Assembly (NCBI GenBank): GCA_022432975.1
Contig: CM039509.1
Coordinates: 8,881,575 to 8,945,574, forward strand
Length of the DNA stretch: 64,000 nt
Reading direction: 5' to 3'
DNA from: Begonia masoniana
Lineage: Eukaryota > Streptophyta > Magnoliopsida > Cucurbitales > Begoniaceae
A program made the position numbers and the translations under genes. This document shows, in pieces, positions 4,382-60,789 of this stretch; within the stretch, counting starts at the first letter, position 1; every line of letters starts with the position of its first letter. The notes under the pieces are model-generated. The model was given only the letters and a program-made list of their open reading frames with translations, had not been told where the DNA came from and made no database searches.

Positions 4382-4399
4382 GTAAAATACCGGTTATAT

Positions 4400-7380: not shown

Positions 7381-7409
7381 TCAATTTTTTAGGACTGAAA
7401 ATTTTGTTT

Positions 7410-7422
7410 AAGGAGGGGTGGA
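7410..7422 (+). other. Polypurine tract of element B
   Basis: AAGGAGGGGTGGA directly precedes the 3' LTR start TGTAACACCCG and would prime plus-strand DNA synthesis. Confidence 0.8.
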
Positions 7423-8070
7423 TGTAACACCCGACAATTTCGGCCAGGTGATTTTCTTAACCATTTTAATTGTCACCCTTTTATTGACCTTTATGATTTT
7501 AAATTTAATGCCAAGACTTATTTATTACAAGTTGAGTGAAACTAGGTTGGGTGGCAAGTTTGTAATTAAGGTGGATTTTAATTGGTATAAATAGGTTATG
7601 GGTATTCTTAAACCTCATTAAAACCTCACTGTAGCCGACATTTCCTCTCTCGGCGATTTCCTTCCTTCTAGAGCTCCCTCTCTGCCAGCTATTCTTTCGC
7701 CGGCGACCAATTCTTCAGCCTCCACTTCGACAATCAACGCTCTAGGTAAGACTTAGACAATGTAGTTACTTGGTAGTTACTTAGAGCTCTGTCTTCAGTT
7801 AGAACTTGAGATTTCGGATTCTTCACTAACAGAGTAATGGTAGTGACAATCATGATCTGTGTTTAGTAATGGCATTTTCGATTCGATTCTGGACATTTAG
7901 ATAACAGACCATGTTTAGTTGTTAGACTTAAATCTGGTTATTTAGGTTCTGGCAGTTTAATCTGTACACACTAGACGCTCGACTAGGAAAATTAGAAATA
8001 TTTATGTTAGGTACTAGGATGACTTTTAATTAGGTTTTTGATTTAACACTATAATGTGAAATGTTTCTAG

Positions 8071-13293: not shown

Positions 13294-13339
13294 GTCAGGC
13301 ACCGACCAAGAGTCTCCTCCTCTAGAAGGATCGCAGGTT

Positions 13340-19929: not shown

Positions 19930-19934
19930 ATTAT

Positions 19935-20900: not shown

Positions 20901-22263
20901 CCCCATTTCTCTGTTTCTCAGGGTATCATACATTTTAAAGGCAGGTTGGTTTTAGGTCGGGGAAACTCCATCAGATCCAAGGTCCTCAAAACATTACATG
21001 ACTCGGCTGAGGGCGGGCATTCCGGTGTTCAAGCCACTCTCCACCGTGCCAAGGCCTTATCCTGGTGGCCAAGGCTTTCTACGGCGGTGCGGGAATACAT
21101 CTGAGGGTGTGATACTTGTCAGCGTTGCAAGCACGAACACATCCCGTATCCAGGTCTCCTCCAGCCTCTTCCTACTCCCCAACACCCATGGACTCATATT
21201 GCCATGGACTTCATCGAAGGACTGCCCAGCTCCCTTCAATCCAACTGTATTCTGGTTGTGATCGATTGTTTCACGAAGTTTGCTCATTTCCTAGCTCTTC
21301 GACACCCATCACGGCAGTTCAGGTGGCGAACTTATTTCTGGATAATATCTTCAAGTTGCATGGTCTACCACAGTCAATCGTTTCTGATAGAGACCCGATT
21401 TTTCTTTCCACATTTTGGCAATCGGTTTTTTCTTCTCTGGGTACTACATTGGACATGTCCACTGCGTACCACCCTGAATCCGATGGCCAAACTGAGCGTT
21501 TAAATCAATGCCTGGAGATGTATTTATGTTGCATGACGTTCCGGAAACCTTTCGCTTGGCGGCAATGGCTTCCTCTGGCCGAATGGTGGTATAACACCAC
21601 GGTACAAACGGCTATTCGTCTGACGCCCTTTGAAGCTCTTTATGGTTATCCTCCTCCTAGGTTAGTTTTAAGACCTTATTTGCAGTCACAATCAGTGGCA
21701 ACCGATGGGTTCCTCCAGGACCGTCATACTATGGATACTTTGTTAAAAGAAAACATCGTCAAGCTCAGAACAGGATGAAATTATACGCCAACCGTCACCG
21801 CACTGAACGTAGTTTCCAACCGGCAGATTGGGTTTATCTTAAACTCCAACCATATCGACAGCTTTCAGTGGCTTCCCGGTCGTCTCACAAGCTTGCTCCA
21901 AAGTATTTTGGTCCCTTTGAAATTCTGTCTTGTGTCGGTCAGGTTGCTTACCGATTAGCTTTACCAGCAGGAACTCACATACATCCTGTTTTTCATGTTT
22001 CCCTTCTCAAGAAGACCATTGGCAATCATGCTCTGTCTTCTCCTCTACCTCCTCCCGATTTCTACTCCAATGACCCTACCGATACTCCCTTCCGACTCCT
22101 ACAGACCCGCGTGGTTAAACGTGGCAATTTTCCGGTTACTCAGTGGTTGATCCAGTGGCAGAATAGACCGGTTTCCGACGCTTCGTGGGTGGACTCTGAT
22201 ATTCTCTCCGCCCAGTTTCCAGAGTTCCGACCTTGGGGACAAGGTCCAGCTGAGGGGGAGGAC
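20901..22263 (+). pseudogene. Element A integrase and chromodomain
   Basis: The zinc-binding region is at 20995-21125 (GGHSGVQATLHRAK, WWPRL, CDTCQRC), with a TGA at 21102. The catalytic core has AMDFIEGLP (about 21203), VSDRDPIF (about 21380) and SDGQTERLN (about 21480), supplying the D,D,E triad across shifted frames. The C-terminal frame 21775-22260 contains KLAPKYFGPFEIL and VFHVSLLKK. It ends in a chromodomain-like stretch, LLQTRVVKRGNFPVTQWLIQ then SWVDSDIL. Confidence 0.88.
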
Positions 22264-22565
22264 TGTTATGAGAAGGGCCTCCAAATGGGATTACGTAGCT
22301 GGGCTGCGAAGGGTAAGCGCAGCAAAAGAAGCCGACACCGTCAGCCCAAGCCTAAGTCAGCTAAGAAGACGGATGACGTGGCAAACTGTTAGGAAAAGCT
22401 CCATTATAACGAGCTGCTGCAAGGAACGAAGGGTGGAGTGAACTATCTGTTTTTCTTATTAGTTTTCTTTATCGTTTTCCTGTAGTTTTCTCTTTCCTTC
22501 CTTCTGTAAATGCTTGTGAGGATTACAGACAAATATTATCTATCAAAACTAGCATTCTCACAACA
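22264..22565 (+). repeat. 3' LTR of element A
   Basis: Starts TGTTATGAGAAGGG after a polypurine tract GAGGGGGAGGAC (about 22252-22263) and ends CTCACAACA. It retains the intact TG...CA ends lost from the 5' LTR. Confidence 0.92.
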
Positions 22566-23006
22566 GACAAGGAGAGGAAGTTCTTGAACGATCAATTGGA
22601 CGAGACTATGAGGATGATCGAGCCGTCAATGAATGAGAGAAGAATCACGTTGGGGCAGTGGAACAAAAAGAAGAAGAAGAAGAAGATATCGGGGAAAGGA
22701 AGCTCTATGTTCGTGCTGAAGAGCCAGTGGAACAACGTTGTGAAAGACAACCAGTTGAGGATCAACGACGTCATTCAGATTTGGTCGTTTCGCGTCGGAG
22801 AGGAGCTTCGCCTGGCGCTGGTTTTAGTGGAAAGGGGGTGGATTATGCTAATGATGACGAAGAAGATGCTGATGATGAGGAAGAAGAAGCTGAAGATGAC
22901 CAAGAAGATGCAAAAGACTCTCGCTGAATTTCTTCCTCGATATTTTTACAATTATTATATTTCCTTTTTATTGTTTCTTTTTGTTAAAGTGCAAATTAGC
23001 CCTTAG
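22566..23006 (+). pseudogene. B3-domain protein copy 1, C-terminal part
   Basis: The frame from 22566 reads DKERKFLNDQLDETM, directly continuing the DUF313-type B3 sequence cut at 838. It proceeds through RRITLGQW, a lysine run, FVLKSQWNNVVKDNQ and DVIQIWSFRVGEELRLALV, the second half of the B3 DNA-binding fold. After about 22830 this frame becomes low-complexity basic. The overlapping frame ending at 22927 instead gives an acidic DDEEDADDEEEE tail, and a G-run at 22835-22840 is a likely site of a one-base shift between them. Acidic tails are common in this family, so the shift is probably a mutation (inference). Confidence 0.82.
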
Positions 23007-43606: not shown

Positions 43607-44206
43607 ATGGCTGGGCCATTTAATCAAGATTATGAAAATCTTAAGGTATTATTGGAAGCTGCGCTTTTCACGTCCATGGATCTAATGGAAGAATTGGAGG
43701 CCGCCAGGTTGAAAGCTGACGAGACCGAGGAAATAACGACGACGGTTTCCAATGCTCCGACCACTGGGACCAGCTCTGAGCATGTGACATCCAGAGAGAG
43801 CTGCTCCAAAAAAAGAAGATTCGAGCGCGGGGAATGCAGCAGGATGCACCGGGTTTCCAAGAAGAGCACCAAGAAAGTTGCAGCGAAGAAAAGAAAACAA
43901 CCGGTGTGTTTTCCCACGCCTGATCTGTCGGAGAGTCACAAGCGCCTCATCAATGGCGTCGGCGGGACAGACACAATGCTGGTAATGCATAAGAGACTGT
44001 TCCAAACGGACGTGGAAACCAACAACGGAAGATTGTCGATGATGTTCTCCCAAGTCCGACATGAGTTCTTGACGGACAAGGAGAGGAAGTTCTTGAACGA
44101 TCAATTGGACGAGACTGTGAGGATGATCGAGCCGTCAATGAACGAGAGAAGAATCACGTTGGGGCAGTGGAACATGAAGAAGAAGAAGAAGATATCGGGG
44201 AGAGGA
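43607..44206 (+). pseudogene. B3-domain (DUF313-type) protein copy 2, truncated by element G
   Basis: An open frame of 200 codons from MAGPFNQDYENL through a basic region (SKKSTKKVAAKKRKQ, possible nuclear localisation signal), LVMHKRLFQTDVETNNGRLS, RHEFLTDKERKFL and RRITLGQWNM to ISGRG. There the LTR of G begins at 44207 and replaces the second half of the B3 fold. Unlike copy 1 there is no earlier frameshift. Its natural continuation is lost or lies beyond the right edge of the window. Confidence 0.82.
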
Positions 44207-44490
44207 TGTTGTGTAACCCATGGTTCACAACGGAGAATCGGAAAACTCCACTGTATTGCCGGCGAACGTTTACAACGAAAAGAAGAAAACGAAAAGAAAA
44301 TAGCAAAAACAAATAACAGTCATATTCATCCACACCCTCTCACGCCTCTCGCTCGCTGATTTTATCCGCCTCTTTCTCTAACGGCCAGGACACGTCATTG
44401 CATCTCTTGGGCCTGGGCTCGCCTGTGTTTGCTGCGTCACTTCCTGGTAGCTCAACTGTGAAGCCCATCGTGGAAGCCCTATCTATAACA
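44207..44490 (-). repeat. 3' LTR of element G
   Basis: Plus-strand ends TGTTGTGTAACCC and TATCTATAACA, 284 bp. The first 50 bases match 60737-60789. On the minus strand the polypurine run AAGGGGGAGGAC adjoins its start at 44491. Confidence 0.85.
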
Positions 44491-44636
44491 GTCCTCCCCC
44501 TTAAATTATCCTTGTCCTCAAGGATAAAAATTTGGACAGCGACAGAATAATATTCTCTTCGACTCTCGGCTTCCGCAACATTAGAATCTGAATCACAGTC
44601 AATCTCTACTTCCAAAACCTGCATCGTTTCCAAGTG
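44491..44636 (-). pseudogene. Element G 3' coding tail and polypurine tract
   Basis: The minus-strand frame reads HLETMQVLEVEIDCDSDSN then FILEDKDNLRGRTV directly before the polypurine tract. LEDK...L.G is the usual end of Reina-type polyproteins, so this is probably the only pol-end remnant left. Confidence 0.5.
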
Positions 44637-45495
44637 CTCAAATTCAAGAATCTGGTCTTTGAGTTTGACAGAGACAACTGGGTATCCTTGTTGCTTGGTC
44701 CACGAATTCATAAGCTTATTCACAGGTTCACCTGATCCTACCTCAAGAGCAGCCCATAGATCTTTCGTCTTGCATTGGAGCAAGCATACCTTTTGATATA
44801 TGAGGCAAGTGACCTCTGAAAACATTCAGCACCAAGATAACTCTGAAGCATTTGAATAACAGAAGCACCTTTCCTGTAACTTATTGCATCAAATATTTCA
44901 TCAATCTCCCTGGTATGATTTATATCCAACTCTATTGGGTGTGACTCTGCAAGCCCATCCAATCTAAGACCCTCGGTTGTTTCGCCAAGAAATTGAATTC
45001 ATATTTTCTACTCTGGAAACAATCCATCAGTGGCTAAATAACTCACCCATGTTGCGAAACCCTCATTTAACCATAAATGCGTCCACCATTCCATAATTAC
45101 AAGATTCCCAAACCACTGATGTGCCAGCTCATGGGCGACAACAATTGCAACCCTCTGCTTGTTGGCTGCTGCTGAATGTTGATCGTCATAAAGCAAAGCA
45201 GTTTCGCGGAGCCATAATTTTCCATGGCCCCAGCAGCAAAATCAGGAATGGCAATCATGACTAATTTTGGCAGAGAGTGTGGCACAGCAAAATATTCTTT
45301 GTACAATTCCAGAGTCTTCACAGCTACATCTAATGCAAATTTCCCTTGATTTGTCTTCCCAACTTGACAGTAGACTCGAACTTTCACTCCATCAGATGTA
45401 TGTTCTTCCACATAATCAAACAAACCAACTACAATTGCCACTAAATATGTTGACATAATCGGTGATTCTTGAAATGAAACTGTCTTGAAATCGCC
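44637..45495 (-). pseudogene. APM1-type aminopeptidase fragment captured by G
   Basis: Minus strand: FKTVSFQESPIMSTYLVAIV, VYCQVGKTNQGKFAL, the GAMEN substrate motif (45231-45217), the zinc site HELAH (45133-45119) with WLNEGF downstream, AISYRKGASVIQMLQSYLG and EPVNKLMNSWTKQ. This is the catalytic half of the M1 zinc aminopeptidase called APM1 in plants. Frameshifts occur after GAMENYG and near 44775, and two tryptophan codons after FPE have become stops. No intron is apparent over about 860 bases, which suggests capture from a spliced transcript (inference). Not functional. Confidence 0.92.
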
Positions 45496-45580
45496 ATTCA
45501 ACGCCCAGCCAGTATAAAATGCGGCATATAGAATGGCTATATCGATTACTGTCATACCAACAACCATAAACTGCATAAAT

Positions 45581-45778
45581 AGCATAATCTGCATCCATCA
45601 ATGGAATAATAAATCCAATCGCCTTAAGGAACGCAGCCCAGACCTTGTGGACATCTGGTCGAACTAACTCGTCCAAATATAAAACAACCTGTCAATGACT
45701 AACCGATACCTCTCTTGATCCTCCAAATGTGGGTTGCATAAGTAATGGTAAATTGCGATTAATCAATGGACCGCAAAA
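45581..45778 (-). pseudogene. SF3B1 (splicing factor 3b subunit 1) fragment captured by G
   Basis: Minus strand: LPLLMQPT then LEDQER, and DELVRPDVHK joined to VWAAFLKAIGFIIPLMDADY. In SF3B1 family proteins these two blocks lie far apart in the HEAT-repeat region, so an internal deletion has joined them here. Positions 45496-45580 between this and APM1 have no recognised source. Confidence 0.75.
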
Positions 45779-45861
45779 TATACCCCGTCATCTTCCGCAT
45801 CAACTACCACTTCATCCGACAAACTCTTTAGCTGAAATTTGATTTTCTCATAAGTAGCCAT

Positions 45862-46080
45862 TTTGATCATTCTGAGGATGCTAGGCAGAAGGCACGTACA
45901 CCTAGTATCAACAGAAACTTCTGGGAGAATGTTGGAAGGACCAATGTCTCAGGCAATCACAATATAGATATTAAGTCCATATTTGAAATTGAGGAATCCT
46001 TTGACAAAGATCTGGAAGAAGCACAAGAGCGCAGGCATAGATGTGAAATCGAAGAAAGAAATGCCACAAAACGATTCTAA
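45862..46080 (+). pseudogene. Plus-strand host-gene fragment resembling zinc-finger C3H1 protein
   Basis: Plus-strand frame: HSEDARQKARTPSINRNFWE, then SIFEIEESFDKDLEEAQERR and CEIEERNA, ending in a stop at 46078. The charged EIEES...KDLEEAQE..R..CEIEERNALK pattern resembles the coiled-coil region of plant ZFC3H1-like proteins. It is oriented opposite to the other fragments. Positions 45779-45861 hold an unassigned minus-strand frame starting MATYEKIKFQ. Confidence 0.5.
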
Positions 46081-46105
46081 TATGCAGTTCGCTAATTTTC
46101 TTGAA

Positions 46106-46305
46106 GCAAAATGAAGGTCAAAACTATTTCAGAAGCTGGACTGGTTACCACCGTCAGATGTGGCTTGTGTCTCATCTTCCTCCTCCAGAAATCTCCATAT
46201 CCTTCCTTAATTTATCCATGTTCTCCTTTCTTCTTCCAAACGCTGCTTCTCTGCTCGTCGCTTGTCAAGAGCAGCCTTGTAGCTTGTTAAAAGAAGGCAT
46301 CCATT
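46106..46305 (-). pseudogene. Unassigned charged coiled-coil fragment in G
   Basis: Minus strand reads YKAALDKRRAEKQRLEEERR and, after a stop, IWRFLEEEDETQATSDGG. Highly charged with coiled-coil character; I do not recognise the parent gene. Confidence 0.4.
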
Positions 46306-46314
46306 CCACACCAG

Positions 46315-46440
46315 AAACAGTCAAACTGGATTGATAGTTCAGAACAGAAAATTCCACAGAGAAAAAGTCCATCGGCCGGAACCTGATCTCCAATGGCAAG
46401 ATGAACAATATCGCCAGGAAGTAGATCATATATCGACATT
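46315..46440 (-). pseudogene. Autoinhibited Ca-ATPase (P-type, ACA-like) fragment in G
   Basis: Minus strand reads SIYDLLPGDIVHLAIGDQVP then ADGLFL, the actuator-domain start of P2B Ca-ATPases. FSVLNYQSSLT follows in a shifted frame, corresponding to the ESSLTGE region. A 50-base A/T-rich stretch separates it from the glycine-rich frame. Confidence 0.78.
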
Positions 46441-46529
46441 TTTTTTTTTTGGTTGATTTATAATTCTGAATCTTAAAAATGAAAACGTAAGAACTCACAA
46501 TAAAATCTGCTGGACTCTCATAAACCATT

Positions 46530-46840
46530 TTACCTTCTAGAATTTGTTCTCCACGTATGGTTCTATCTCCTTTCTCAACTTGGGCATATCCTCCAGACCC
46601 ATCCTTGCCACCGACAGAGTTTTCAGGGCCACCAATTCCACCTACAACCTTGTAGTTTCCGTCCATACTGTTTGTGTTTCCACTACCAGCGCCTGAGATG
46701 AATTGATTGCTGCCAGAGTCACCATAGGTGGCTCCACTTCCATAGCTGTTACCGCCATAATTTCCTCCACCAGACTGGTTGTCACTGCTGCCATAATTTC
46801 TGGTATACTTACCTCCAGAACTAGAACCATAACCAGTCCC
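46530..46840 (-). pseudogene. Glycine-rich fragment fused into the G chimeric frame
   Basis: Minus strand: repeated GGGNYGGNSYGSGATYG-type sequence, then VGGIGGPENSVGGKDGSGGY and KGDRTIRGEQILEGKMVY. It is in frame with the preceding MscS-like segment. It resembles glycine-rich RNA-binding proteins in composition only; parent gene not identified. Confidence 0.5.
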
Positions 46841-46844
46841 TAAA

Positions 46845-46919
46845 TGTTCTTCCTGGTCCGACAAGTCTCTGCACCGCCTTTGAACCATGTCTTTGTTATT
46901 AGCCTCGTTATTAGGCTGG
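46845..46919 (-). pseudogene. MscS-like channel fragment, distal part (left of H)
   Basis: Continues, across the H insertion and after removing one GCTGG, the frame at 60250-59899 with PNNEANNKDMVQRR and DLSDQEE. This fits the acidic linker that follows the conserved SREIKVSFQ stretch in plant MscS-like proteins. Confidence 0.6.
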
Positions 46920-47158
46920 TGTAACGACCCTTACCCGTACCCTAATTTTTACCGTACAAATTTTTTTTTTTTTTTTTATACGTACAAACTTTAAATCTGG
47001 CCTTTGTGCGGAAATAAAACTTTTTAAAATCGAATCGGAATTGAAATCAATTCAAATCTATGTTTACAACTATTTAAATAATTTAAAACAATTAAATTAA
47101 AACTTAAACAATTAATTAAAACAATTATTAAACAATTAAATTAAATCTATTATTATTT

Positions 47159-47235
<77 letters not shown>

Positions 47236-49314
47236 TAATAAAGAGGGCAATCGCCCCTTTTGTGGGCGATTATTCGCCCCCTTTGGGGGCAAATAATTGC
47301 ATGTGGCGATTGCTCGCCACAGTTGTGGCGAGCAATCGCCACTCCCTCTGGATTTCTCCAGAGGGAGGCAATTCATTCGCCACGCCTGGCGACCCTTCGC
47401 CAGGCGTTCTGCCTCCCTCCCTCATTCTCACTCTTTTTCTCTTTTCTCAATCCATTCACCCCCTGCACACACCCTTACACAAAACTCACACAACACAAAC
47501 GAAACCCAAAATCTTCAACTCCCTCATTCCTTCATCATATTACATTTCATACCTTTCCCATAAACACACATTTCTACACAACGACACTACCGTTCAATCA
47601 CCGACCCAAAACACAATTAAAACGAAATCAATTCCATAAAAACGAACCGTGTGGTTCCATTTAAAAATTCAACATATCCTCCTGTTTTCAAAATCAATAA
47701 AACATTACAAAATACATCCAATTTCTCAAAACATCTTCTATTAACTATCCAGATTCTAACATCCTATAATATCTTATCAAATTCTATCAACTAACCCAAA
47801 ATACCGATAAACGTCCCCACGGGTCAAAATAACGCTCCGACTGCCAGCGCACTCCCACGGGCCTCCTCCTTCAACGTGCTCATACGTCAGGCGGAGGGAC
47901 GTCTTCCTCACCTGTCTCGAAATCACCTCCACCATAAAGACACCTATGAGATAAAAATCTCAGTAAGCCCTACGTAAATGCTAATACATGATCATGTATG
48001 CAATGAAAACCGTCCATATCATTTCTTTTCAGTGCGTGTCAGTCTAGGTTAACGGGCCCTAAATGCATTCAGATGGATAGGGCACATCAAGCGGGTAGAC
48101 AACCCACACCATCTGAAAGGAGGAAGACCCGCTCACCACGGAACGCCAAGTCTGAACCTCACCCGAATAACCTCCTTGCGTTGTTTATCATGATACTTTA
48201 CTTGCCACATGCATGCAATTCTTTCTCTTGAAATTAATGCGTAAATTCATTTTTCATGACATTTTGAAGACTATGATGCATGAACAATTCAAAGTAAATG
48301 TAAAGTAAACAATCAACATATATACCATCAAGACAATAAATAAACATCATATAAAAACAACTAACCCTAACTACCCAAACCCAAAGCAGTTTAAACAATC
48401 AATCCTCAAAGTTCCTCGAGACGACTTGACATATGGTGTAGACCGATTGGCCAAAGTAAGTCACGAGAACTTACCTCGCGTCCGTTGTACACCGAGCTTC
48501 GTCCAAATTCGTTTGTTCACCTATAACATTTCACAACATACGTATTAAATCGAGTCTAAAACCGTCAAACTCCGAAATTGCTAACTCCTAACTAAAGAAA
48601 ATTCTCCTAAACTCTATTTTTGGTTCATTGAGGCATTTCATCGAGCAATTCACGCTCGAGAATCATCAAACTCCATTAATGGAGGTTTTTAAGCTCCAAG
48701 TTACCCAATACTTCAACACACCTCAACAAATCGATGAACTAAGCTCCAATAATAGCCAATACGTCTATTAGAAGCATAGATGAGCTCAACCTATCGATTT
48801 CAAACATCGATTCACGTTTTTTTTTACGAAAACTCTAATGAACCCTAATCGTTTTAAACTTTAGAAATCGCTATTTAACGTTCCAAAAGTGTAGAGCCTT
48901 ACCTAGAGAGAGATGACGGAGTAGAAACGTGATGGATTGAGTCGTCGAAAGAAGAGAATCGTCGCTGAAAATGAAGAATCGCCGTTGAAAGGAGACAAGT
49001 CTCGTGGAGGGAAAGGAAGAAATGGGTTTGCGTTGAAGTGTTGGAGAAGAAATGAAAAAGTGTAATATTTAGTAAAAATTCAATTTGGCAATTACCAAAT
49101 CGCCCCTCCATTTAACTTAATTTCTTCATCCAATTGCCTCGTTATTTAGCTAACGATCCGATTTTCCAAATTTCTCATATTTCACCATAAATTCCAATTT
49201 ATCATTACGGCTTCGTTAAAACTTTCTGTTCGCAAAACGGACAAAATCTGATATATTTACAAAATTGCCGCATATTGGAATAAAAATTTAAAGCCCATAA
49301 AGTCGGGCGTTACA
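46920..49314 (-). repeat. 3' LTR of element H
   Basis: 2,395 bp. Minus-strand landmarks: mini-exon 48520-48475 (46 nt, GTGAAC...GCGAG/GTAAGT) and arm ATATGGTGTAG on plus at 48431-48441. The other arm has decayed to CCTCCACCATAA (about 47926). It also carries an (AT)n run at 47160-47230 and a GGCGATTATTCGCC hairpin cluster at 47245-47405. A polypurine tract (minus AATTAAGGTGGATGGAT) adjoins at 49315. Confidence 0.92.
47160..47230. repeat. (AT)n microsatellite, left LTR of H
   Basis: About 34 AT units. The matching run in the other LTR (54186-54265) is longer. Open reading frames through it are artefacts. Confidence 0.95.
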
Positions 49315-49354
49315 ATCCATCCACCTTAATTGAAATTTTGTCCTCAAGATTTGA

Positions 49355-52300
49355 TTATTCAAATAACTCGGGATATTTCAACATCATGTCTTGCTGTCTC
49401 TCCCAGGTAGCCTCCTCTACGTCGTGGTTCCTCCACAAAACCTTTACTAGAGGAATCTCCTTATTTCGCAGCACCTTGATAGAAGACTCTAGGATTCGCA
49501 CTGGCCTTTCCTCGTAGGTCAGCGTTGGTTGTACCTCAATCTCCCTTGTTTCAACGACGTGTGATGGATCTCGCACGCATTTTTTGAGCATAGACACGTG
49601 GAACACATCGTGAATACCTTTCATAGATGCCGGGAGTTGTAACTTGTATGCCATAGTCCCGACCCTCTTCAGAATAGGAAAAGGGCCGACAAAACGAGGA
49701 TTCAACTTTCCTCGCCTTCCAAATCGCATAATGCCTTTGAACGGAGAAATCTTCAAATACACCTCGTCACCCTCCTTAAACTGTAGTTCTCTCCGTCTGG
49801 TGTCAGCATAACTCTTTTGGCGGCTTTGTGCAATCTCTATGCGTTGTCTAATAACAGCGATCTTCTCCGCCGTTTGTTGCAAAATATCTGGGCCAACAAT
49901 GCTAGCTTCGCCTACCTCATCCCAATATAGTGGAGACCTGCATTTTCGACCATACAGCGCCTCATACGGAGCCATGCCAATAGTAGCCTGGAAGCTGTTA
50001 TTGTACGAAAACTCAATCAACGGCAGATATCGGCTCCACGAGCCCTGAAACTCTAGCACGCAAGCTCTAAGCATGTCCTCAAGAATCTGGTTTGTTCTTT
50101 CTGTCTGCCCGTCAGTCTGAGGATGAAATGCCGTGCTAAAATTCAACTGAGTTCCCATTGCCTTATGTAAACTCTTCCAGAACTTTGATGTAAATCTGGC
50201 ATCCCTATCAGAAACAATAGAGATAGGCACTCCGTGTAGTCTAACAATCTCCTGTACATACAGCTCAGCTAGCTGGTCCATAGAGTAGGTCATCTTCACT
50301 GGTAGGAAATGGGCCGTCTTCTTCAAACGGTCCACGATCACCCAAATACCATCATGCCCCTTTGTTGTTCTCGGGAGTCCAACTATAAAATCTGTGGATA
50401 TCTGTTCCCACTTCCACTCTGGAATAGGCAACGGCTGTAGGGTCCCAGCTGGCCTTTGATGTTCTGCCTTTACCTGTTGGCAAATCAGGCAGGTTTCTAC
50501 ATACTTGGCAATTTCTCTCTTCATATTAGGCCACCAAAAATGTTGTCTCAAGTCTCTGTACATTTTTGTGCTCCCCGGATGTACTGAATACGCCGAGGAA
50601 TGTGCCTCATTCAAAATCTCTCCTTTCAGCTCATCATCATTAGGCACGTACCACCTGTGCCTAAATTTCAGTACTCCATCATCTGTCAGGTTAAAATCAG
50701 ATGAACCTTCAGATATCATGCTCGTTTGATGCTTTTCACACTCCAAATCGTTCTGTTGAGCCACCCGTATTCTATCCAAAATCGTCGGTCTAAGAGAAAT
50801 GTTTGTAAGCATGTTGGACAATTCTGCCACTATCTCCACGTCAAACTTCTCAATCTCATACCTCAACATTACCGACATTGACGCAAATGAGGGCTGGCTC
50901 GTTGTAGGCATTCGACTCAAGGCATCAGCTACTTTATTCGCTTTTCATGGGTGGTATTTAATTTCAAAATCGTAGTCCTTAACGAACTCCAACCACCGTC
51001 TTTGTCGCATGTTCAACTCCTTTTGTGTAAATAGATACTTTAAACTCTTGTGGTCTGAGAACACTTCACACTGTTGCCCATACAGGTAATGTCTCCAGAT
51101 TTTTAAAGCAAAAACGACCGCTGCAAGCTCAAGGTCGTGTGTCGGATAGTTTTGCTCATATGGCTTCAATTGTCTAGAAGCATAAGCGATGACCTTGCCT
51201 TCCTGCATTAACACGCATCCCAGTCCAATTCCCGAGGCATCACAATAAATACTGAACTTATCGCCCTCAACTGGTAGTGTCAGAACTGGAGCCGTAGTCA
51301 ATCTCTGTTTCAACTCCACAAAACTTTTCTCACATGCAGGAGACCATAGAAATCTTTCATTCTTTCTCGTCAACCGAGATAGAGGGACAGCTATCTTTGA
51401 AAACCCCTCGATGAATTTCCTGTAATATCCAGCTAAACCAAGAAATCCTCATACCTCTCGTACATTCTTAGGCCGTGGCCATTGCTTAACAACCTCAATT
51501 TTAGCTGGATCTACAGAGATTCCCTCCTGAGAGATGATATGACCAAGAAAACTTACTTGATCAAGCCAGAATTCACACTTAGAAAATTTCGGATACAGTT
51601 GATGTTGACACAAGGTCCTTAGTACAATCCGTAAATGCTCCTCGTGCTCCTCCTTTGTCTTAGAATAAACCAGGATGTCATCTATAAAAACAACGACAAA
51701 CCTGTCCAAATACTCTTTGAAGACGCGATTCATCATATCCATAAATGCTGCAGGTGCATTGGTAAGTCCAAAGGACATCACAAGAAATTCGTAATGCCCA
51801 TACCTCGTTCGAAACGCTGTCTTTTCAATATCTTATTTTCGGACCTTCAACTGATAGTAACCCGAGCGTAGGTCGATTCTTGAAAACACTCGGGCACCCT
51901 GCAATTGGTCGAATAGATCGTCAATTCGGGGCAGTGGATACTTATTCTTCACGGTCAATTTATTCAACTCTCGATAATCAACGCACATCCTGAGAGTTCC
52001 ATCCTTTTTCTTCACAAATAGGACCGGTGCGCCCCAAGGAGAAAAGCTGGGTCGTATAAACCCCTTGTCTAGTAGCTCCTCCAACTGAGACTTCAGTTCT
52101 TTCAATTCTGCAGGCGCCAATCTATACGCATTCTTGGATACAGGCGCTGAACTCGGATAGACATCAATTACAAACTCGATCTCCCGATCAGGCGGTAGCC
52201 CTGGAAGATCGTCTAGAAAAATCTCTGAGAACTCCTTAACAACTGGAAGGTCATCCGGTTTCAATTTATCAAGTAGCCGAGTATCAATCACTGTGGCCAC

Positions 52301-53779
52301 AAAAATCGAGCATCCATCTTTAAATCGTTCTCTGGCTAACATCGAATAAGTAGTAGGCGGTCCACTTAACTTATTCCTCGCTTGAAAAGTGAATTCAACC
52401 TTGTTCGGGGGGCGAAAAGTCACCATCCTGGACCCGCAATCAATGGTAGCGCAATGGCGTGCAACCCAATCCATTCCCAAAATAAGATCATACACCTCTA
52501 TTCCCATAACTATCAACCGGGCATAGAGGGTGTTGTTTCCCACAGAGACGACGTTGCCCTGGAAAACCTGATCAGACTGCATACTTGCTCCCGAAGGCAG
52601 CATTACTCTATACTCGCATTCAGCCAACTCAGATACTAGCCCCAATCTACCCATGCAAGCAGTTGAAATAAAAGAGTGCGTAGCTCCTGTATCTATCAAA
52701 GAAAATACCGGTACACCCATGATTAGAATAGTACCTGCTATGATAGATGGCTGTGCCTCATCATCAACATCTCCGGGCTCGATAAATGCGAAGATTCTCG
52801 GCATAACTGTTCTCTGATCGGTGGCCGCTCTAGGACAGTTCTGAGCAAAATAACCGATCTCTCCACATCTAAAACAACTGTTCGTGCCCAACCGACAAGC
52901 GCCATAGTGCTCCTTCTGGCACTTCAGACAAATAGGTTTCTGTGTAGCCCCTTGAACTTGTTTCCCCTTGCCTTTATCGTTTCCTCCTTCATGAGGCCTT
53001 TTGACGCCTCGTTGTTGTTGTCCTTTGGGTTGCCAACCCCTATTCCGTATCTGTGGCTGAATCTCCCGAAAGAAGCTCTTAGAAGGCTCTCTCGGCTTAA
53101 CACAAGTCAACTCTGCAGCTTCGAACTCCAGAGCTCTCGCTGCAATCTCCTCATAAGGCACATCCAGGATACCAGACACTATAATATTTTTCCGAACTTC
53201 TCTATTCAGTCCATCCATGAATTGCTGCACCTTGTCCTCATTATCACTGACTAGGCGCGGTGCAAACTTAGATAAAGCTTCAAACTTTCTTATATACTCA
53301 GCCACCGTGCTAGTCTGTTTCAATTGTGTAAACTCAGCTCTCTTTGCCGCCCTCACCGTACGGCTGAAATACTTATCGAAGAACACGGTTTTAAACCGTT
53401 CCCACCTCATCAACGCCACGTCCGTTGTAACTTTAATAGAATCCCACCAAGACCGGGCGTCCAGTGCTAGGTGGAATGTGACGCACTCTACCTTCTCGGC
53501 ATTGTCCACCTTGGAATACGCCAACATATCTTCCATTTTGCGAATCCACTCTTCAGCAATAGAGGGGTCCGTAGATTGCCCGTCGAACGTCGGAGGCCTT
53601 AACTTTTGAAATCTCTCCATGCTTGGACCATTAGGAATAACTATATCCTGGGCTCTCCGATTCTCCCGAACCAAGTCCGCAATTTGTTGGGCTTGTCGAT
53701 CCATATGTTGTGATTGGCGATCGAGCAAGTCCGTTAGCCTATCCATAGCATTGTCTCGGGCGTCTCTACCTCGAACCAT
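49355..53779 (-). pseudogene. Element H gag-pol polyprotein, three stops
   Basis: Minus strand from [10 protein letters not shown] at 53779. It holds capsid domain, zinc knuckle [14 protein letters not shown], protease [14 protein letters not shown] ([32 protein letters not shown]), RNase H ([20 protein letters not shown]), integrase (FIVGLPRTTKGHD, VSDRDARF, TDGQTERTNQILEDM) and a C-terminal chromodomain ending [18 protein letters not shown]. About 1,474 codons. Stops at 51833 (RT), 51449 (RT end) and 50945 (after RNase H) look like point mutations, because the frame otherwise continues without shifts. The intact relative would be the autonomous Tekay-like source. Confidence 0.95.
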
Positions 53780-53927
53780 TTTTCTAAAACTCCTATAAAA
53801 TTAAAACAAGAAATCCTAAGAAATCAAATTAAAATAAAACAATTAAACATACTTACAGTTGATGAAGGATGTCCGCGTAGTGGCTGAGCAGTCGTGCAGT
53901 CTACAGAACCGTTTTTAAAACCTGGGG

Positions 53928-53939
53928 GCTCTGATACCA
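53928..53939 (-). other. Primer-binding site of element H
   Basis: TGGTATCAGAGC on the minus strand, a perfect initiator tRNA-Met complement next to the LTR end at 53944. Confidence 0.92.
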
Positions 53940-54185
53940 TAACTGTAACGACCCTTACCCGTACCCTAATTTTTACCGTACAATTTTTTTTTTTTTTTTA
54001 TACGTACAAACTTTAAATCTGGCCTTTGTGCGGAAATAAAACTTTTTAAAATCGAATCGGAATTGAAATCAATTCAAATCTATGTTTACAACTATTTAAA
54101 TAATTTAAAACAATTAAATTAAAACTTAAACAATTAATTAAAACAATTATTAAACAATTAAATTAAATCTATTATTATTTTATAT

Positions 54186-54265
<80 letters not shown>
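54186..54265. repeat. (AT)n microsatellite, right LTR of H
   Basis: About 38-40 AT units, slightly longer than the run in the left LTR, showing slippage since insertion. Confidence 0.95.
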
Positions 54266-54270
<5 letters not shown>

Positions 54271-55239
54271 TAATAAAGAGGGCAATCGCCCCTTTTGTGG
54301 GCGATTATTCGCCCCCTTTGGGGGCAAATAATTGCATGTGGTGATTGCTCGCCACAGTTGTGGCGAGCAATCGCCACTCCCTCTGGATTTCTCCAGAGGG
54401 AGGCAATTCATTCGCCACGCCTGGCGACCCTTCGCCAGGCGTTCTGCCTCCCTCCCTCATTCTCACTCTTTTTCTCTTTTCTCAATCCATTCACGCCCTG
54501 CACACACCCTTACACAAAACTCACACAACACAAACGAAACCCAAAATCTTCAACTCCCTCATTCCTTCATCATATTACATTTCATACCTTTCCCATAAAC
54601 ACACATTTCTACACAACGACACTACCGTTCAATCACCGACCCAAAACACAATTAAAACGAAATCAATTCCATAAAAATGAACCGCGTGGTTCCATTTAAA
54701 AATTCAACATATCCTCCTGTTTTCAAAATCAATAAAACATTACAAAATACATCCAATTTCTCAAAACATCTTCTATTAACTATCCAGATTCTAACATCCT
54801 ATAATATCTTATCAAATTCCATCAACTAACCCAAAATACCGATAAACGTCCCCACGGGTCAAAATAACGCTCCGACTGCCAGCGCACTCCCACGGGCCTC
54901 CTCCTTCAACGTGCTCATACGTCAGGCGGAGGGACGTCTTCCTCACCTGTCTCGAAATCACCTACACCATAAAGACACCTATGAGATAAAAATCTCAGTA
55001 AGCCCTACGTAAATGCTAATGCATGATCATGTATGCAATGAAAACCGTCCATATCATTTCTTTTCAGTGCGTGTCAGTCTAGGTTAACGGGCCCTAAATG
55101 CATTCAGATGGATAGGGCACATCAAGCGGGTAGACAGCCCACACCATCTGAAAGGAGGAAGACCCGCTCACCACGGAACGCCAAGTCTGAACCTCACCCG
55201 AATAACCTCCTTGCGTTGTTTATCATGATACTTTACTTG

Positions 55240-58200
55240 TGTAACGCCCCGAATTATCTAAACCCGGTTCGCTACATTTCACTCTATCATGACTAAGAAA
55301 TTTCGAATAAATTTTTAAAACTTCATTCGAAATTCAAAATTTGACATTTTCTAAACATTCAAAACATTTGAAAACTTTGCAGCGGAAAATCATTTAAAAC
55401 AACAATGAAGTTAGACAAACTGTAGAAAATATTGTTGGGGTGTTTAACGGAAATGTTGAAGTCATCTGCCGACGACAAGGTCAACGAAAGAAGCAGAAAT
55501 AGAAAACCGAAGACTTCTGCCGATGACGTCAGCCGGAAGGAATGAAAGCAAAAGACATCACTCGGTAGGCTTCATATACCGATGACGTGTACAACAACGC
55601 AACACCTTCTGCCGATAATGTCTACACAGCTTCCCTCTCGACTTCATCTGCCGATGAAGTCATCATAACTCCATACACCACTACATCTGCCGATGAAGTC
55701 AACATGACTTCATCTGCCGATAAAGTCAGCACAATTTCATCTCCCAACAGACAAGCGCACGACATCTACCGATAACGACAATATGACCCTTTCCGATAGA
55801 ATTAATATACACACTACATCTTCCGATTCTCTAAACGACAAAATCACTTAACTCTCTCGGACTGCACCTGCCGATCACTAAACAACAAACTTAATACTCT
55901 ACATCTTCCGATCGAATAAACTACATCTGCCGACACGTGCTACCCACGTGACCCCTTAAGACATCTACCGATAGACATCAACACAACTTCCTTCAACAGA
56001 ACGCAATAAACCTCTACGCATATCCACTGATACAAAATTATTCGACTCCTACCAATGGACTAAACAACATATATATAAACCAAGAAAACTTCGACTATCA
56101 ACCGGACTTAAAACATTTTACCAAAAATCCATTCATAACACTCCAAGTCATTGTATTGATAAAAATCAGTAAGAACATGAAAATCAGAAATTCTCAAAAA
56201 AAAATACGAAATCAAACAGCTGAGCTGTAGCCTCGTTACTAAAAACTCAATGTACTCAGATTAAATCATTAATCACTAAACCGCCTCATCTGTAGACAAA
56301 CATGCTAACCCCTCCTACTTAATTAAGGGGCAGATGAATTCCCTTACACTTGATCTGATCCCATGGTTCCCTTGGAGTGGATCAATTCTCCCAATGTCTA
56401 CATCCTTCCTACTTATTAGGGGCAGATGAATTCCCTTAACCTTGATCTGTCGCATACAGTTCATACCTTACCAGTTCCTTACATGAAAAGTCATTTTCGT
56501 AGTTTTAATAAAAGCATATGCATGGATAACAAAACATACAATCACGCACAAACCTACTGTTTTGTGATGTAGGGCCCGAAGGCACAAGCATACTTATACT
56601 TACCTGGATTCCTAGCAAATGCTCGGTTAGAGCTACTTCGGGGTTCGTCACCTATATTCATAACAAAATGTTAAACTTAATGCTAAACCGCCTCATCTGT
56701 AGACAACATGCTAAACCGCCTCATCTGTAGACAACATGCTAAACCGCCTCATCTGTAGACAACATGCTAAACCGCCTCATCTGTAGACAACATGCTAAAC
56801 CGCCTCATCTGTAGACAACATGCTAAACCGCCTCATCTGTAGACAACATGCTAAACCGCCTCATCTGTAGACAACATGCTAAACCGCCTCATCTGTAGAC
56901 AACATGCTAAACCGCCTCATCTGTAGACAACATGCTAAACCGCCTCATCTGTAGACAACATGCTAAACCGCCTCATCTGTAGACAACATGCTAAACCGCC
57001 TCATCTGTAGACAACATGCTAAACCGCCTCATCTGTAGACAACATGCTAAACCGCCTCATCTGTAGACAACATGCTAAACCGCCTCATCTGTAGACAACA
57101 TGCTAAACCGCCTCATCTGTAGACAACATGCTAAACCGCCTCATCTGTAGACAACATGCTAAACCGCCTCATCTGTAGACAACATGCTAAACCGCCTCAT
57201 CTGTAGACAACATGCTAAACCGCCTCATCTGTAGACAACATGCTAAACCGCCTCATCTGTAGACAACATGCTAAACCGCCTCATCTGTAGACAACATGCT
57301 AAACCGCCTCATCTGTAGACAACATGCTAAACCGCCTCATCTGTAGACAACATGCTAAACCGCCTCATCTGTAGACAACATGCTAAACCGCCTCATCTGT
57401 AGACAACATGCTAAACCGCCTCATCTGTAGACAACATGCTAAACCGCCTCATCTGTAGACAACATGCTAAACCGCCTCATCTGTAGACAACATGCTAAAC
57501 CGCCTCATCTGTAGACAACATGCTAAACCGCCTCATCTGTAGACAACATGCTAAACCGCCTCATCTGTAGACAACATGCTAAACCGCCTCATCTGTAGAC
57601 AACATGCTAAACCGCCTCATCTGTAGACAACATGCTAAACCGCCTCATCTGTAGACAACATGCTAAACCGCCTCATCTGTAAAACATGCTAAACCGCCCT
57701 CATCAGTTACCAAGTGAAGCCTGAATGCACTCCTTCAACATCCCTCTACTCCTCAACATGGTCAGGGGACACACCTGCTAACTCTTCTTTCGCCTACATC
57801 ACAAAACTCATCTATTAGCCTAATGCTAAGCAAGTAAAGCAATATATTTATATATGTAAAGTAATGCTGAACTTAAACTCCTAAACATGCAGTTTCTACT
57901 TTCTCATCTCTCAGTGGCATACACGTTCATTCACAACTTGATCTGATCCCATGGTTCCCTTGGGAGTGGGATCAATTCTCCCAATGTCTACATCCTCCTA
58001 CTTAATAAGGGGCAGATGAATTCCCTTAACACTTGATCTGATCCCATGGTTCCCTTGGGAGTGGGATCAATTCTCCCAATGTCTACATCCTCCTACTTAA
58101 TTAAGGGGCAGATGAATTCCCTTAACACTTGATCTGTCGCATACAGTTCATACCTTACCATTCCTTACATGAAAATTCATTTTCGTAGTTTTAATAAATC

Positions 58201-58809
58201 ATGATGCATGGATAACAGAAACATACAATCACGCACAAACCTACTGTTTTGTGATGTAGGCCCGAAGGCACAAGCAATACTTACTTACCTGGATTCCTAG
58301 CAAATGCTCGGTTAAGAGCTACTTCGGGGGTTCGTTCACCTATATTCATAAACAAAATGTTAAACCTTAATTTAAGCTATTCAGAAATCTAAGGAGTTGG
58401 TTTGACATTTCTATTTATCTAACATTCCCGATTCTGCTCTAACCCTCAAGCAGAATCTCTCACTCGCAACATTATCAAAATGCATACATTGGGATCCTTA
58501 AGCTACCTAGGTACCAAAATCAGCAATTAATCGAATCTAAACTCACCTTGGTTGGAGGAATCGGTGAGGAAATCGCCTAAAGAGTTCTGCTGGGTTGAGC
58601 TGAAAACCGAGAGTGAAATGAGTATGACGGCTATACCTCATTCAATCTTTCCTTAAATATGTTATCCATAACATAAATTGACAATTACCCTTATGCCCTC
58701 ACTTAGTTACTTATTAACCTAATTGATTTTTTACCCCGAATTTTATTCTATAAAATTCACACTTAGAAGATTAATAGGTTATTTTAATTCTAATAAACCG
58801 GGTGTTACA
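55240..58809 (-). repeat. 3' LTR of element K with internal duplication and array
   Basis: 3.57 kb. Minus-strand landmarks: mini-exon 58339-58289 (51 nt), arms on plus GTTTTGTGATGTAGG (58246-58260) and CCTACATCACAAAAC (57793-57807). A second copy of the mini-exon, donor and first arm lies at about 56640-56559. The segment has therefore been duplicated, with the 28-bp array between the copies. Roughly 95-bp repeats containing CTTGATCTGATCCCATGG lie at 56345-56455 and 57935-58140. Degenerate CATCTGCCGATGAAGTC repeats cover 55445-56050. Confidence 0.88.
56681..57705. repeat. 28-bp minisatellite, about 36-37 copies
   Basis: Unit AAACCGCCTCATCTGTAGAC plus AACATGCT, 28 bp, almost identical in every copy except the last (CTGTAAAACATGCT and GCCCTCATC). 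The near-absence of variants implies very recent expansion. A single related unit sits at about 56279-56310. In Q the homologous non-repeated segment follows the second putative acceptor (CTGATGAGGCGATTTAAC near 9970). Confidence 0.97.
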
Positions 58810-58844
58810 ATCTACCTTCCTTAAAAGAATTTTGTCCTCAAAAT

Positions 58845-59733
58845 TCAGTACCTGAACAATCTTGGATGCTGGTCCATCATGTCTTGCTGGCGTTCCCAAG
58901 TTGTCTCCTCTATATTCTGATGATGCCATAAGACTTTCACTAGCGGAACTTCCTTGTTGCGTAATACTTTCACTGCATAATCCAAGATTCTTACTGGTCT
59001 CTCCTCATAGGTCAGTGTAGGTTGAATTTCAATGTTCTGCTGTTCCACAATCTGAGATGGATCCCTCAAGCACTTCTTAAGCATAGAAATATGGAACACA
59101 TTGTGGATTCCTTCCATAGAGTCTTGCAATTGCAGCTCATATGCTGATTTTCCAATCCTCTTCAAGATTGAGAAAGGTCCAACGTATCTTGGGTTAAGCT
59201 TCCCTCTCTTCCCAAATCTCACAACTCCTTTGAATGGTGATACCTTAAGAAAAACCTCACTACCAACTTCAAACTCTAACTCTCTGCGTCTTCTGTCAGC
59301 ATAGCTTTTCTGTCGACTTTGAGCTGTTAAGATCCTCTGACGGATGAGAGCAACCTTCTCAACAGTTTGCTGCACAATATCAGGACCAAGTAACTGTGCT
59401 TCACCAACTTCATCCCAGTACAAGGGTGATCTGCATTTTCGTCCATACAATGCTTCATACGGTGCCATTCTTATTGTTGCCTGAAAGCTGTTATTGTAAG
59501 AGAACTCTACCAGAGCTAGGTACTTACTCCAAGAGCCTTGGAAATCTAAAACACATGCACGGAGCATATCTTCTAGAATCTGAATAGTTCTTTCGGATTG
59601 TCCATCAGTTTGAGGGTGAAAGGCCGTGCTAAAGTTAAGTTGTGTTCCCATAGCCTTATGCAAACTTTTCCAAAACTTAGATGTAAATCTAGAGTCTCGG
59701 TCTGAAACTATAGTGCTTGGAACTCCATGCAAT
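58845..59733 (-). pseudogene. Element K integrase C-terminal half and chromodomain
   Basis: Minus strand from [19 protein letters not shown] through [20 protein letters not shown] and [14 protein letters not shown] to the chromodomain [20 protein letters not shown] and [10 protein letters not shown]. The frame is open to its stop at 58845. The start is cut at the junction with the LTR of H, so the integrase lacks its zinc region and first catalytic aspartate. Confidence 0.92.
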
Positions 59734-59898
59734 CTAACGATCCGATTTTCCAAATTTCTCATATTTCACCATAAATTCCAATTTATCATTACGGCTTCGT
59801 TAAAACTTTCTGTTCGCAAAACGGACAAAATCTGATATATTTACAAAATTGCCGCATATTGGAATAAAAATTTAAAGCCCATAAAGTCGGGCGTTACA

Positions 59899-60250
59899 GC
59901 TGGAAAGAAACTTTGATTTCCCTAGATGTCCGAACCACCGGAGACTCCGCGACTGGGGGCAAAGTCTTATCTGAACAGAGCTCATCCATTTCTAGATCCA
60001 TGTCCAGTGATAAATCACCAGAAGCTTCCTGTTTATGTAAGAACTGTCCAATCAGCTTCGAAGGTGGATCGTCCAGAGTTGGCCATTGTCGCGCCAAATC
60101 AAAGCTAGCACCCGTTCTAGCAGTAGAACGAGTCACATTATCTCCGTCTTCAACGTCGTTCCAGAAATCATAACTACAGTTCCGGAATATGTTTCCTCGA
60201 GTGTTCTTTGAATCCATCGTTCTGGAGTCAAAAGAAGAATCGCCGTCGTC
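59899..60250 (-). pseudogene. MscS-like mechanosensitive channel N-terminal fragment fused to G gag
   Basis: Minus strand, in the gag frame: IFRNCSYDFWNDVEDGDNVT, DDPPSKLIGQFLHKQEASGD, SLDMDLEMDEL and SREIKVSFQ. These are hallmarks of the cytosolic N-terminus of plant MscS-like (MSL) plasma-membrane channels, which act as tension-gated ion channels. Only the N-terminal segment is present, with no membrane helices. The fusion point follows the gag sequence QPPPRFTKI at about 60250. Confidence 0.75.
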
Positions 60251-60715
60251 GATTTTTGTAAATCTTGGTGGCGGCTGGAAACCGACTTGTAGATGCTCCT
60301 CCGTGGCTAGAGGTGCTGAGTAGGGCACAGGTTGGATTCCCGGCGTCCTGGGTTTTTCGCCTGGGTTGGTTGCTCCGCGCGGCCCCGATCCAGAATCCAG
60401 CTTGGAGTGTGCTAGCGTGGTCAGCATTGCTAGTATCGCCTCCTGAGTCGTTTTCATCGCCTTCTGGGTCCTTTTCATCGCCTCCTAGGTCATTTTCAGG
60501 TCCTGAAAACTTTGATCGTTATTGGTCGTCTTCACTGCAACGCTAGCCAGCTCGTTTTTCAGCTCCTGAAATCCCTCAGTGAGTTTTCTCAGGCTCTCTG
60601 TTGACCCAAGTTGAACAGAACCGTATTCTTCACTCTCTTCGTCGAGCTGAAGAACAGAATCGTATTCTTCACTCTCTTCGTCTGATTTTGCTCTCGTTGC
60701 AGCCATCCCTCCCAT
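60251..60715 (-). pseudogene. Element G gag N-terminus
   Basis: Minus strand from the ATG at 60715 (or 60706): MAATRAKSDEESEEYDS, a repeated acidic DEESEEYGSV motif, the coiled coil LRKLTEGFQELKNEL, a TAG at 60487-60485, then the same frame continues with AILAMLTTLAHSKLDSG and QPPPRFTKI. Same plan as the gag of A (1168-1418). In a Reina element the capsid domain would follow; here it is replaced by MscS-like channel sequence. Confidence 0.78.
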
Positions 60716-60722
60716 CGTAGCT

Positions 60723-60734
60723 GCTCTGATACCA
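60723..60734 (-). other. Primer-binding site of element G
   Basis: TGGTATCAGAGC on the minus strand, a perfect initiator tRNA-Met complement, two bases from the LTR end at 60737. Confidence 0.9.
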
Positions 60735-60736
60735 CT

Positions 60737-60789
60737 TGTTGTGTAACCCATGGTTCACAACGGAGAATCGGAAAACTCCACTATATTGC
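60737..60789 (-). repeat. 5' LTR remnant of element G
   Basis: Fifty-three bases matching 44207-44257 (TGTTGTGTAACCC...), with few differences, then cut at 60790 by the terminus of J. The remaining LTR should reappear right of the window. Confidence 0.85.

Follow-up and report, generated by a model that had tools for sequence, protein, structure and literature searches.

Introduction

In the available part of a 2026 review (PMC13317346), maize Bs1 is a long terminal repeat (LTR) retroelement with pieces of three donor genes, and multi-host-gene transduction by a single plant LTR element rests on Bs1 there. The accessible sections of a maize survey (PMC2774510) count 425 LTR elements with gene fragments, derived from at least 189 captures, and report, under the conditions of that survey, no element with fragments of more than one standard nuclear gene. 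In the portion at hand of a further article (PMC7264820), genes that were transduced are said to lie mostly in sense and to be present as one or a few copies. Here we describe element G, which spans positions 44207 to 60789 of a 64-kb stretch of Begonia masoniana DNA (hereafter, the window; assembly GCA_022432975.1, contig CM039509.1, positions 8,881,575 to 8,945,574), together with 15 relatives from the same genome. An earlier note, made from the letters of the window alone, had described G as a non-autonomous element that transduced several genes, and the finding of several host pieces and no pol match between its LTRs upholds that description. To judge from the sequences, we consider it very probable that G and its relatives arose by serial capture of host mRNAs through template switching, and that they are non-autonomous, chromovirus-like derivatives mobilised in trans. 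No plant LTR family of this kind was among the articles listed by literature searches.

Results

Host-gene pieces of element G

G is an LTR element on the minus strand, with an LTR length of 284 bp. From 5′ to 3′ it contains the gag N-terminus, an MSL6-like piece, a glycine-rich segment, an ACA piece, a segment, an inverted piece, a segment, an SF3B1 piece, a segment, an APM1 piece, a 3′ tail and the polypurine tract. These features, and the insertions H and J, are arranged as follows (coordinates without a prefix are those of the window, and C-numbered coordinates are those of contigs of the same genome, 795 Mb in 308 contigs; TSD, target-site duplication).

44202–44206, no strand: left TSD GAGGA; second copy beyond J, beside C8:8949494
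44207–44490, minus strand: 3′ LTR of G, 284 bp, TGTTATAG...CACAACA on the minus strand, from the sequence and an LTR search
44491–44502, minus strand: polypurine tract AAGGGGGAGGAC, adjoining the 3′ LTR, from the sequence
44507–44634, minus strand: 3′ tail, also present in other elements (query 2284–2424 matches several other places)
44635–45500, minus strand: APM1 (M1 aminopeptidase) piece, seven host exons with six introns absent; frame broken by indels
45501–45574, minus strand: segment between the SF3B1 and APM1 pieces; no donor found
45575–45772, minus strand: SF3B1 piece that skips 501 bp internally, at a 3-nt microhomology (AAG)
45773–45842, minus strand: segment between the inverted piece and SF3B1; no donor found
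45843–46137, plus strand: inverted host piece (ZFC3H1-like in the earlier note), matching the locus C3:2234839–2236165
46138–46317, minus strand: coiled-coil-like segment, part of it without a Pfam match
46318–46444, minus strand: ACA-type Ca2+-ATPase actuator-domain piece, joined at an A-run; one contiguous open host exon
46442–46847, minus strand: glycine-rich segment, from genome matches
46836–46914, minus strand: remaining end of the MSL piece, left of H, continuing from 59899 across H
46915–46919, no strand: target duplication of H, GCTGG; second copy at 59899–59903
46920–59898, no strand: H, a later LTR-element insertion that is not part of G; TSD GCTGG; with pol matches
59899–60256, minus strand: MSL6-like mechanosensitive-channel piece, 93.9% identical to C12:40544700–40545400
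60257–60706, minus strand: gag N-terminal region with one internal stop codon, from the sequence and tblastn
60723–60734, minus strand: initiator tRNA-Met primer site TGGTATCAGAGC, 12 nt, from the sequence
60737–60789, minus strand: innermost (3′) 53 bp of the 5′ LTR of G, truncated by insertion J (TSD GCAAT)

Matches to host genes confirmed the MSL, Ca-ATPase, SF3B1 and APM1 pieces recognised in the earlier note, and these four donors plus the inverted piece make up the located host pieces of G, four of the five in sense. The APM1 piece was compared exon by exon with C1:78969819–78972184, and the identity was 95–98% in six blocks and 90% in the block that contains a gap. All six introns, each of them GT–AG, are precisely missing in G; five were checked by script and one by eye, the latter being exact (AAAGA/GTATG...CTACAG/ATATT). 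A Peptidase M1 match in G exceeded the curated Pfam cut-off. In sister elements, both of the two YSL introns are likewise absent. Because the APM1 and YSL introns are exactly absent, these pieces most probably originated as mRNA copies. The host APM1 copy L029 (C1:78969600–78972500) shows, near position 320, a one-base exon difference from the element copies covering that site; this could mean that L029 is a broken paralogue or that the APM1 piece came from a different copy.

The MSL donor stretch, C12:40544700–40545400, has a frame open from its start codon, and all 39 protein-database matches to the reading frame of a sister element align on the MSL part, two of which start as many as 22 residues ahead of that part. 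The SF3B1 donor is an uninterrupted 533-codon stretch (C10:32657700–32659300), of which bases 625 and 1127 are joined in G at the common AAG. The host locus of the inverted piece contains a 342-codon open exon. The earlier note had the orientation of this piece right; no Pfam family was found in it, leaving the name ZFC3H1 without support. It was also considered as an exactly spliced copy, which was rejected, since its 483-bp skip lies off the GT–AG sites of the locus and two more gaps fall inside the open exon. The glycine-rich segment, which the earlier note had listed among the host fragments, is present, but its four best matching places outside the delimited elements have MSL directly upstream; these places are therefore relatives of the family and not evidence of a host origin. 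The stretch that follows the glycine-rich piece was tried as a retained intron and rejected, being contiguous in relatives. In several elements, different captured pieces follow a short segment (46442–46510 of the window, and its counterparts in relatives) that terminates in an A-run and reads ...NYKSTKKK in frame; it could be a favoured jumping site or the remnant of a poly(A) tail.

Ends, insertion site and age of element G

The LTR ends, tRNA-Met primer site, polypurine tract and gag start that the earlier note had read on the minus strand were all found at the same positions; gag starts at the ATG at 60706 or, alternatively, at an in-frame ATG at 60715. The earlier note had also expected a right LTR with a GAGGA duplication beyond J. 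The rest of this LTR was indeed recovered there, at C8:8949258–8949494 (window equivalent approximately 67684–67920), by an LTR search of the genome, and on its outer side lies TCCTC, which is complementary to the left GAGGA. The LTR pair shows 2 differences in 288 compared bases, about 4 of which are counted twice owing to the target duplication of J. At a commonly used plant substitution rate of 1.3 × 10−8 per site and year, this divergence would date the insertion of G to roughly 0.3 million years ago. When the flanks of G were fused over a single GAGGA, they aligned with another place in the window:

22588–22802, plus strand: paralogue of the empty insertion site of G, 94.4% identity over 215 columns with one 3-base gap

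This level of identity means that the insertion of G and its 5-bp duplication are real. With TG...CA LTR ends, a TSD, a primer site, a polypurine tract and no pol match, G has the features of a non-autonomous LTR retrotransposon. The lack of reverse transcriptase (RT), RNase H and integrase noticed in the earlier note held in tblastn searches at E 0.001, in which the RT, RNase H and integrase core peptides of two pol-bearing relatives, L039 and L036, matched neither half of G (no other pol set was tried).

H and J are insertions later than G, and the two halves of G are uninterrupted by H in relatives L013, L016 and L025. H contains a perfect 28-bp tandem repeat array at 56512–57704 and, close to its right end, a partial second pol at 58875–59742.

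A family of patchwork relatives

A query made of the leader and gag of G gave at least 71 matches, which fall into 38 places when neighbours within 5 kb are joined; 40 of the 175 candidates were scored. Twenty related stretches were fetched and 15 elements were delimited, L015, L016, L017, L018 and L023 being left out as partial or too complex; the 15 were chosen by likeness to the G leader and are kin, not a random sample. Every one of them contains pieces of at least two host genes. The earlier note had proposed to look for other copies with the fragments of G, and these do recur, with the same junctions, in relatives elsewhere in the genome. Perfect 5-bp TSDs flank 11 of the 15 elements; of the others, L013 has one mismatch, L014 has a 4-bp duplication, none was seen for L021 and the ends of L028 are unclear. 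The primer site is exact in 13 of the 15, and by our reading a purine-rich tract precedes the 3′ LTR in all except L025 (14/15). Identity between the two LTRs of an element ranges from 95.2% to 100% across the family, and is 100% in L022, L024 and L026.

Pfam families above the curated cut-off were HSP70, HSP90, PPR, OPT/YSL, UCH, Sec7-like HUS, Mpp10, RRM and PUB-ARM, with Peptidase M1 in G. Once MSL, ACA and SF3B1 are added, the donor families number at least 13, and the set of genes differs from element to element. Compared with the 15 delimited relatives, no sequence of 26 bp or longer is private to G, so that its pieces were most likely taken up by ancestral elements and inherited from them. 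No fusion of Mpp10 and YSL was seen among the 120 listed of 866 protein matches (7,990 candidates scored), the best identities being 52–81%. The stretch L043 (C7:44956900–44957600) was tried as a PPR donor gene and rejected, because it has a stop and a different second piece follows the PPR part in frame; it is probably another patchwork copy.

Several further arrangements were observed among the relatives. In the partial relative L034 (C15:10630700–10639400), at 6840–7806, the recurring A-rich KSTKK joint is surrounded by pieces of Vac14 and AAA ATPase. L028 (C1:6019600–6029500) has a very long simple repeat, EAEAEA... in one frame, as well as tandem 1,051-bp duplications that hold HSP70 and more patchwork. 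At C1:29098800–29119351 (L016 and L017), two patchwork elements in opposite orientations and at least two pol-bearing relatives lie within approximately 20 kb.

Junctions and exchange of patches

The gag–MSL junction falls at base 291 of the MSL stretch in 12 of the 15 elements and at base 295 in L012, and is absent from L027 and L028. Downstream, the last base of the MSL piece is 349, 384, 481, 505 or 512, or else the piece reaches as far as the fetched stretch goes (699); other sequence then follows. The gag–MSL junction is thus the founding junction, common to 13 of 15 elements with differing 3′ contents. L020 has a second MSL piece, which starts at base 184. A comparable pattern was seen for HSP70, whose left junction (648/867) is common to L020, L021, L022 and L024 and whose right ends range from 1279 to 1718.

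At the protein level, gag and MSL share K-I-D at their joint, MSL and HSP90 share I-G-Q-F, and two HSP70 segments share V-L-I. Microhomology of at least 3 nt was present at 10 of the 19 distinct jumps, where about 1 would be expected (chance 0.051 per jump, equal base use). For each jump the largest value among copies was used, and seven of the 19 were unscorable and counted as misses; L043 served as the donor for two, both unscorable, and the count without them is 10 of 17. The inverted-piece jump of L026 is probably the same event as a neighbouring jump among the 19.

The HSP70 and YSL patches of L010 or L020 are 92–97% identical to those of L022, although the LTRs are only about 50% alike, and the patches must therefore have moved between LTR lineages. 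L024 (C3:2573300–2583200) is 8 kb long, its two LTRs are 100% identical and GAATT flanks it at either end. Its interior contains an inverted block of a G-like sister element, LTR sequence included, between two copies of a 339-bp forward segment. L024 is probably a strand-switch chimaera that moved as a unit, and it may serve as a model for the inverted piece of G. The earlier note had taken that piece to imply several capture events or template switches; an inversion need not be a separate invasion, since L024 carries its inverted block within one mobile unit.

Long open frames

In six of the 15 elements, a forward frame without stops extends as far as the 3′ end of the internal region: L010 (891 codons), L020 (695), L021 (1,090), L022 (669), L024 (912) and L027 (731). 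The longest reverse frames span 117–192 codons, except in L024 (333, inverted block) and the low-complexity L028 (646). L027, followed from gag to the 3′ end, forms a single frame of 1,296 codons interrupted by 2 stops, as against 74 and 83 stops in the other forward frames. L020 has 1,027 codons with a single stop.

The indels of individual pieces were then compared. YSL pieces, 91–95% identical to the donor, lack frame-breaking gaps in six of seven copies, whereas APM1 pieces, 95–97% identical to the donor, have frame-breaking indels in all eight. These APM1 indels are partly shared by descent, a 10-bp one being common to four copies and 149- and 35-bp ones to two; stop counts of APM1 were not used, as the one-base donor difference shifts the first exon, and only other indels were counted. 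HSP70 pieces show no frame-breaking indels once paired one-base alignment gaps are discounted, and that of L020 has a stop. In a raw tally, indel length was a multiple of three in 6 of 34 cases for the long-frame group and in 44 of 138 for the G group, which does not speak for frame keeping; among the 34, many fall within the gag part or belong to the paired 20- and 22-bp gaps of L021, and the copies are not independent. The ratio of non-synonymous to synonymous substitutions (dN/dS) between copies was 0.54–0.85 in 11 comparisons, and strong purifying selection on the chimaeric proteins was rejected on this ground.

There is a serious, if not quite even, chance that the very long frames are accidental, in other words that recent captures of host exons happened to be in frame and that no selection was involved. 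Amino acids are hardly conserved at the dN/dS found, the copies are related, so that few events are concerned, the simple indel tally shows no frame keeping, the frame of G is broken, and nine of the 15 elements have no long frame. The near-complete frames of L027 and L020 speak against such luck, as does the contrast between YSL and APM1, even with several APM1 gaps shared by descent; the chance that seven junctions all fall in frame is approximately 3 to the power −7, where seven is our own estimate for L027. It is from the long frames and the indel contrast among YSL, APM1 and HSP70, not from the raw tally, that we take the openness of the frame, rather than the encoded protein, to have been kept, on evidence that we grade as weak to moderate.

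Pol-bearing relatives and candidate helpers

The gag N-terminus of the helper candidate is matched by all 15 elements and by G, with 45–73% identity in the best stretches, and its RT, RNase H and integrase core found no tblastn match in any of them. L010, L020 and L021 end in the same pol C-terminal tail as L036. Pfam searches of L039 found protease, RT, RNase H, the integrase zinc-binding domain and, weakly, the integrase core and a chromodomain; in L036 they found protease, integrase and a weak chromodomain, and RT and RNase H were found by tblastn. The two chromodomain matches (E 0.004 and 0.009) are below the Pfam cut-off. L038 has gag and RT matches, and L017 has gag, protease and RT matches. 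Both pol-bearing elements and elements with fragments thus exist in the genome, which leaves the transduction proposed by the earlier note standing.

L039 has the same primer site as G, and that of L036 differs by one base; the boundary between tract and 3′ LTR is similar in L039, L036 and G. The frames of L039 and L036 are interrupted, that of L039 by an insertion at 3004–5570 of the reversed stretch. A search with the RNase H region of L039 gave 40 scored matches out of 137 candidates, at least 10 of them within 5 kb of the leader-gag places. From the common gag, primer site and tract, we infer that the pol-bearing relatives are likely helpers. The parent family would be Ty3/gypsy and chromovirus-like, to judge from the gag shared with pol-bearing members and the weak chromodomains; support reaches this chromovirus-like level, which is broader than the Reina type named in the earlier note.

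The earlier note had suggested mobilisation by relatives of another element of the window, A:

12743–22341, plus strand: span of the gag-pol matches of element A, a relative of the probable helpers of G

Pol-bearing elements with a related gag do exist, but A itself, at about 53–71% amino-acid identity to the L039 peptides, is a more distant relative of L039, L036, L038 and L017. Between its RT and RNase H matches, at 15711–19197, A contains approximately 3.5 kb of ~31-bp tandem repeats.

Discussion

According to the mechanism that we propose, the cis signals (LTRs, primer site and polypurine tract) and the gag N-terminal leader would be kept, the other parts of gag-pol being replaced by copies of host mRNAs. 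The element RNA would be packaged beside host mRNAs in particles from pol-bearing relatives, and RT would jump between templates at matches of a few bases, gaining pieces and skipping within a single mRNA. The chimaera would then integrate, be transcribed and repeat the cycle, so that the 5′ leader and the first captured gene persist while the 3′ part is replaced. Recombination of co-packaged sister RNAs would trade patches between LTR lineages, and strand switches would invert blocks. In one branch, the patchwork would be held in a single frame up to the pol tail. More tentatively, and with some doubt on our part, the lineage may be a continuing exon-shuffling machine: as its 3′ side grows, it would sample spliced mRNAs again and again and exchange patches across LTR families, and selection would act only to keep one open frame leading to the pol tail (on translation as such, e.g. 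for escape from RNA decay or for packaging), not on content.

Several observations weigh against serial mRNA capture. Exact splice joints were not seen in the inverted piece, and no donors were found for the glycine-rich piece, the three short segments and the 3′ tail of G. The LTRs of the helper candidates are just 41–71% identical to those of the derivatives, the best values being to L010 and L020. In addition, the elements were picked by likeness to G, so that events shared by descent were counted in several copies. Lastly, microhomology is equally a mark of DNA end joining, and retrocopies or fragments might have been stitched together at the DNA level by microhomology-mediated repair in a resident element that then spread. 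The 3–6 nt matches suit such end joining as well as template jumping, and some jumps are deletions within a single donor. We nevertheless regard assembly at the DNA level as improbable, given that the APM1 and YSL pieces show the joints of spliced mRNA, that four of the five located pieces of G are in sense, that the junctions appear to build up from a common 5′ founder to varied 3′ contents, and that different LTR lineages have patches in common, as co-packaging of RNAs would predict.

A later Pack-MULE, Helitron or CACTA insertion within G, although these are the more frequent gene catchers in maize in the accessible sections of the survey (PMC2774510), is refuted as the source of the pieces common to relatives and next to impossible overall, as relatives elsewhere hold the same pieces and junctions between primer site and 3′ LTR, the exactly intron-free APM1 and YSL pieces are expected of mRNA copies and not of DNA capture, and the only large insertion found in G, the LTR element H, brings none of them (no search was aimed at terminal inverted repeats or hairpins of DNA transposons); the nested origin raised in the earlier note as a possible objection is thereby set aside.

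Returning to template switching, recent insertions, common founding junctions and graded downstream differences together allow the order and mechanism of capture to be read from the copies. The family makes it possible to test whether RT jumps at microhomology, whether orientation switches have the same origin and whether sister RNAs trade patches, as well as whether selection on non-autonomous elements favours an open frame whatever that frame contains.

Pack-MULEs, Helitrons and Pack-CACTA elements likewise shuffle gene pieces. They are DNA transposons that copy genomic DNA, introns included, whereas the copies tested here lack introns and lie between LTRs. Retand and other elements with additional open reading frames resemble this family in carrying extra sequence, sometimes antisense, within LTR elements; in the portion at hand of the article that describes them (PMC7264820), these frames are mostly of unknown origin, unlike the host pieces found here. 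Veju and BARE-2, as presented in the available part of the review (PMC13317346), are similar in that abnormal template switching yielded new LTR-element structures, but they involve unknown or retroelement sequence, whereas here serial host mRNAs would be involved. The gene captures of plant LTR retrotransposons in maize, rice and sorghum also place host gene fragments inside LTR elements; unlike the elements in the accessible sections of the maize survey, several host genes per element are the rule here. Bs1 is the nearest in kind: like the elements described here, it is an LTR retroelement with host pieces of several genes and a chimaeric reading frame (PMC13317346, same part), and its intron-free host pieces between LTRs and more than one host gene per element are seen again in this family. 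In contrast to the three donor genes given there for Bs1, all 15 relatives have pieces of two or more genes, with at least 13 donor families overall, differing sets and recent insertions, and the family goes beyond Bs1 in the recombination among its members and in its long frames.

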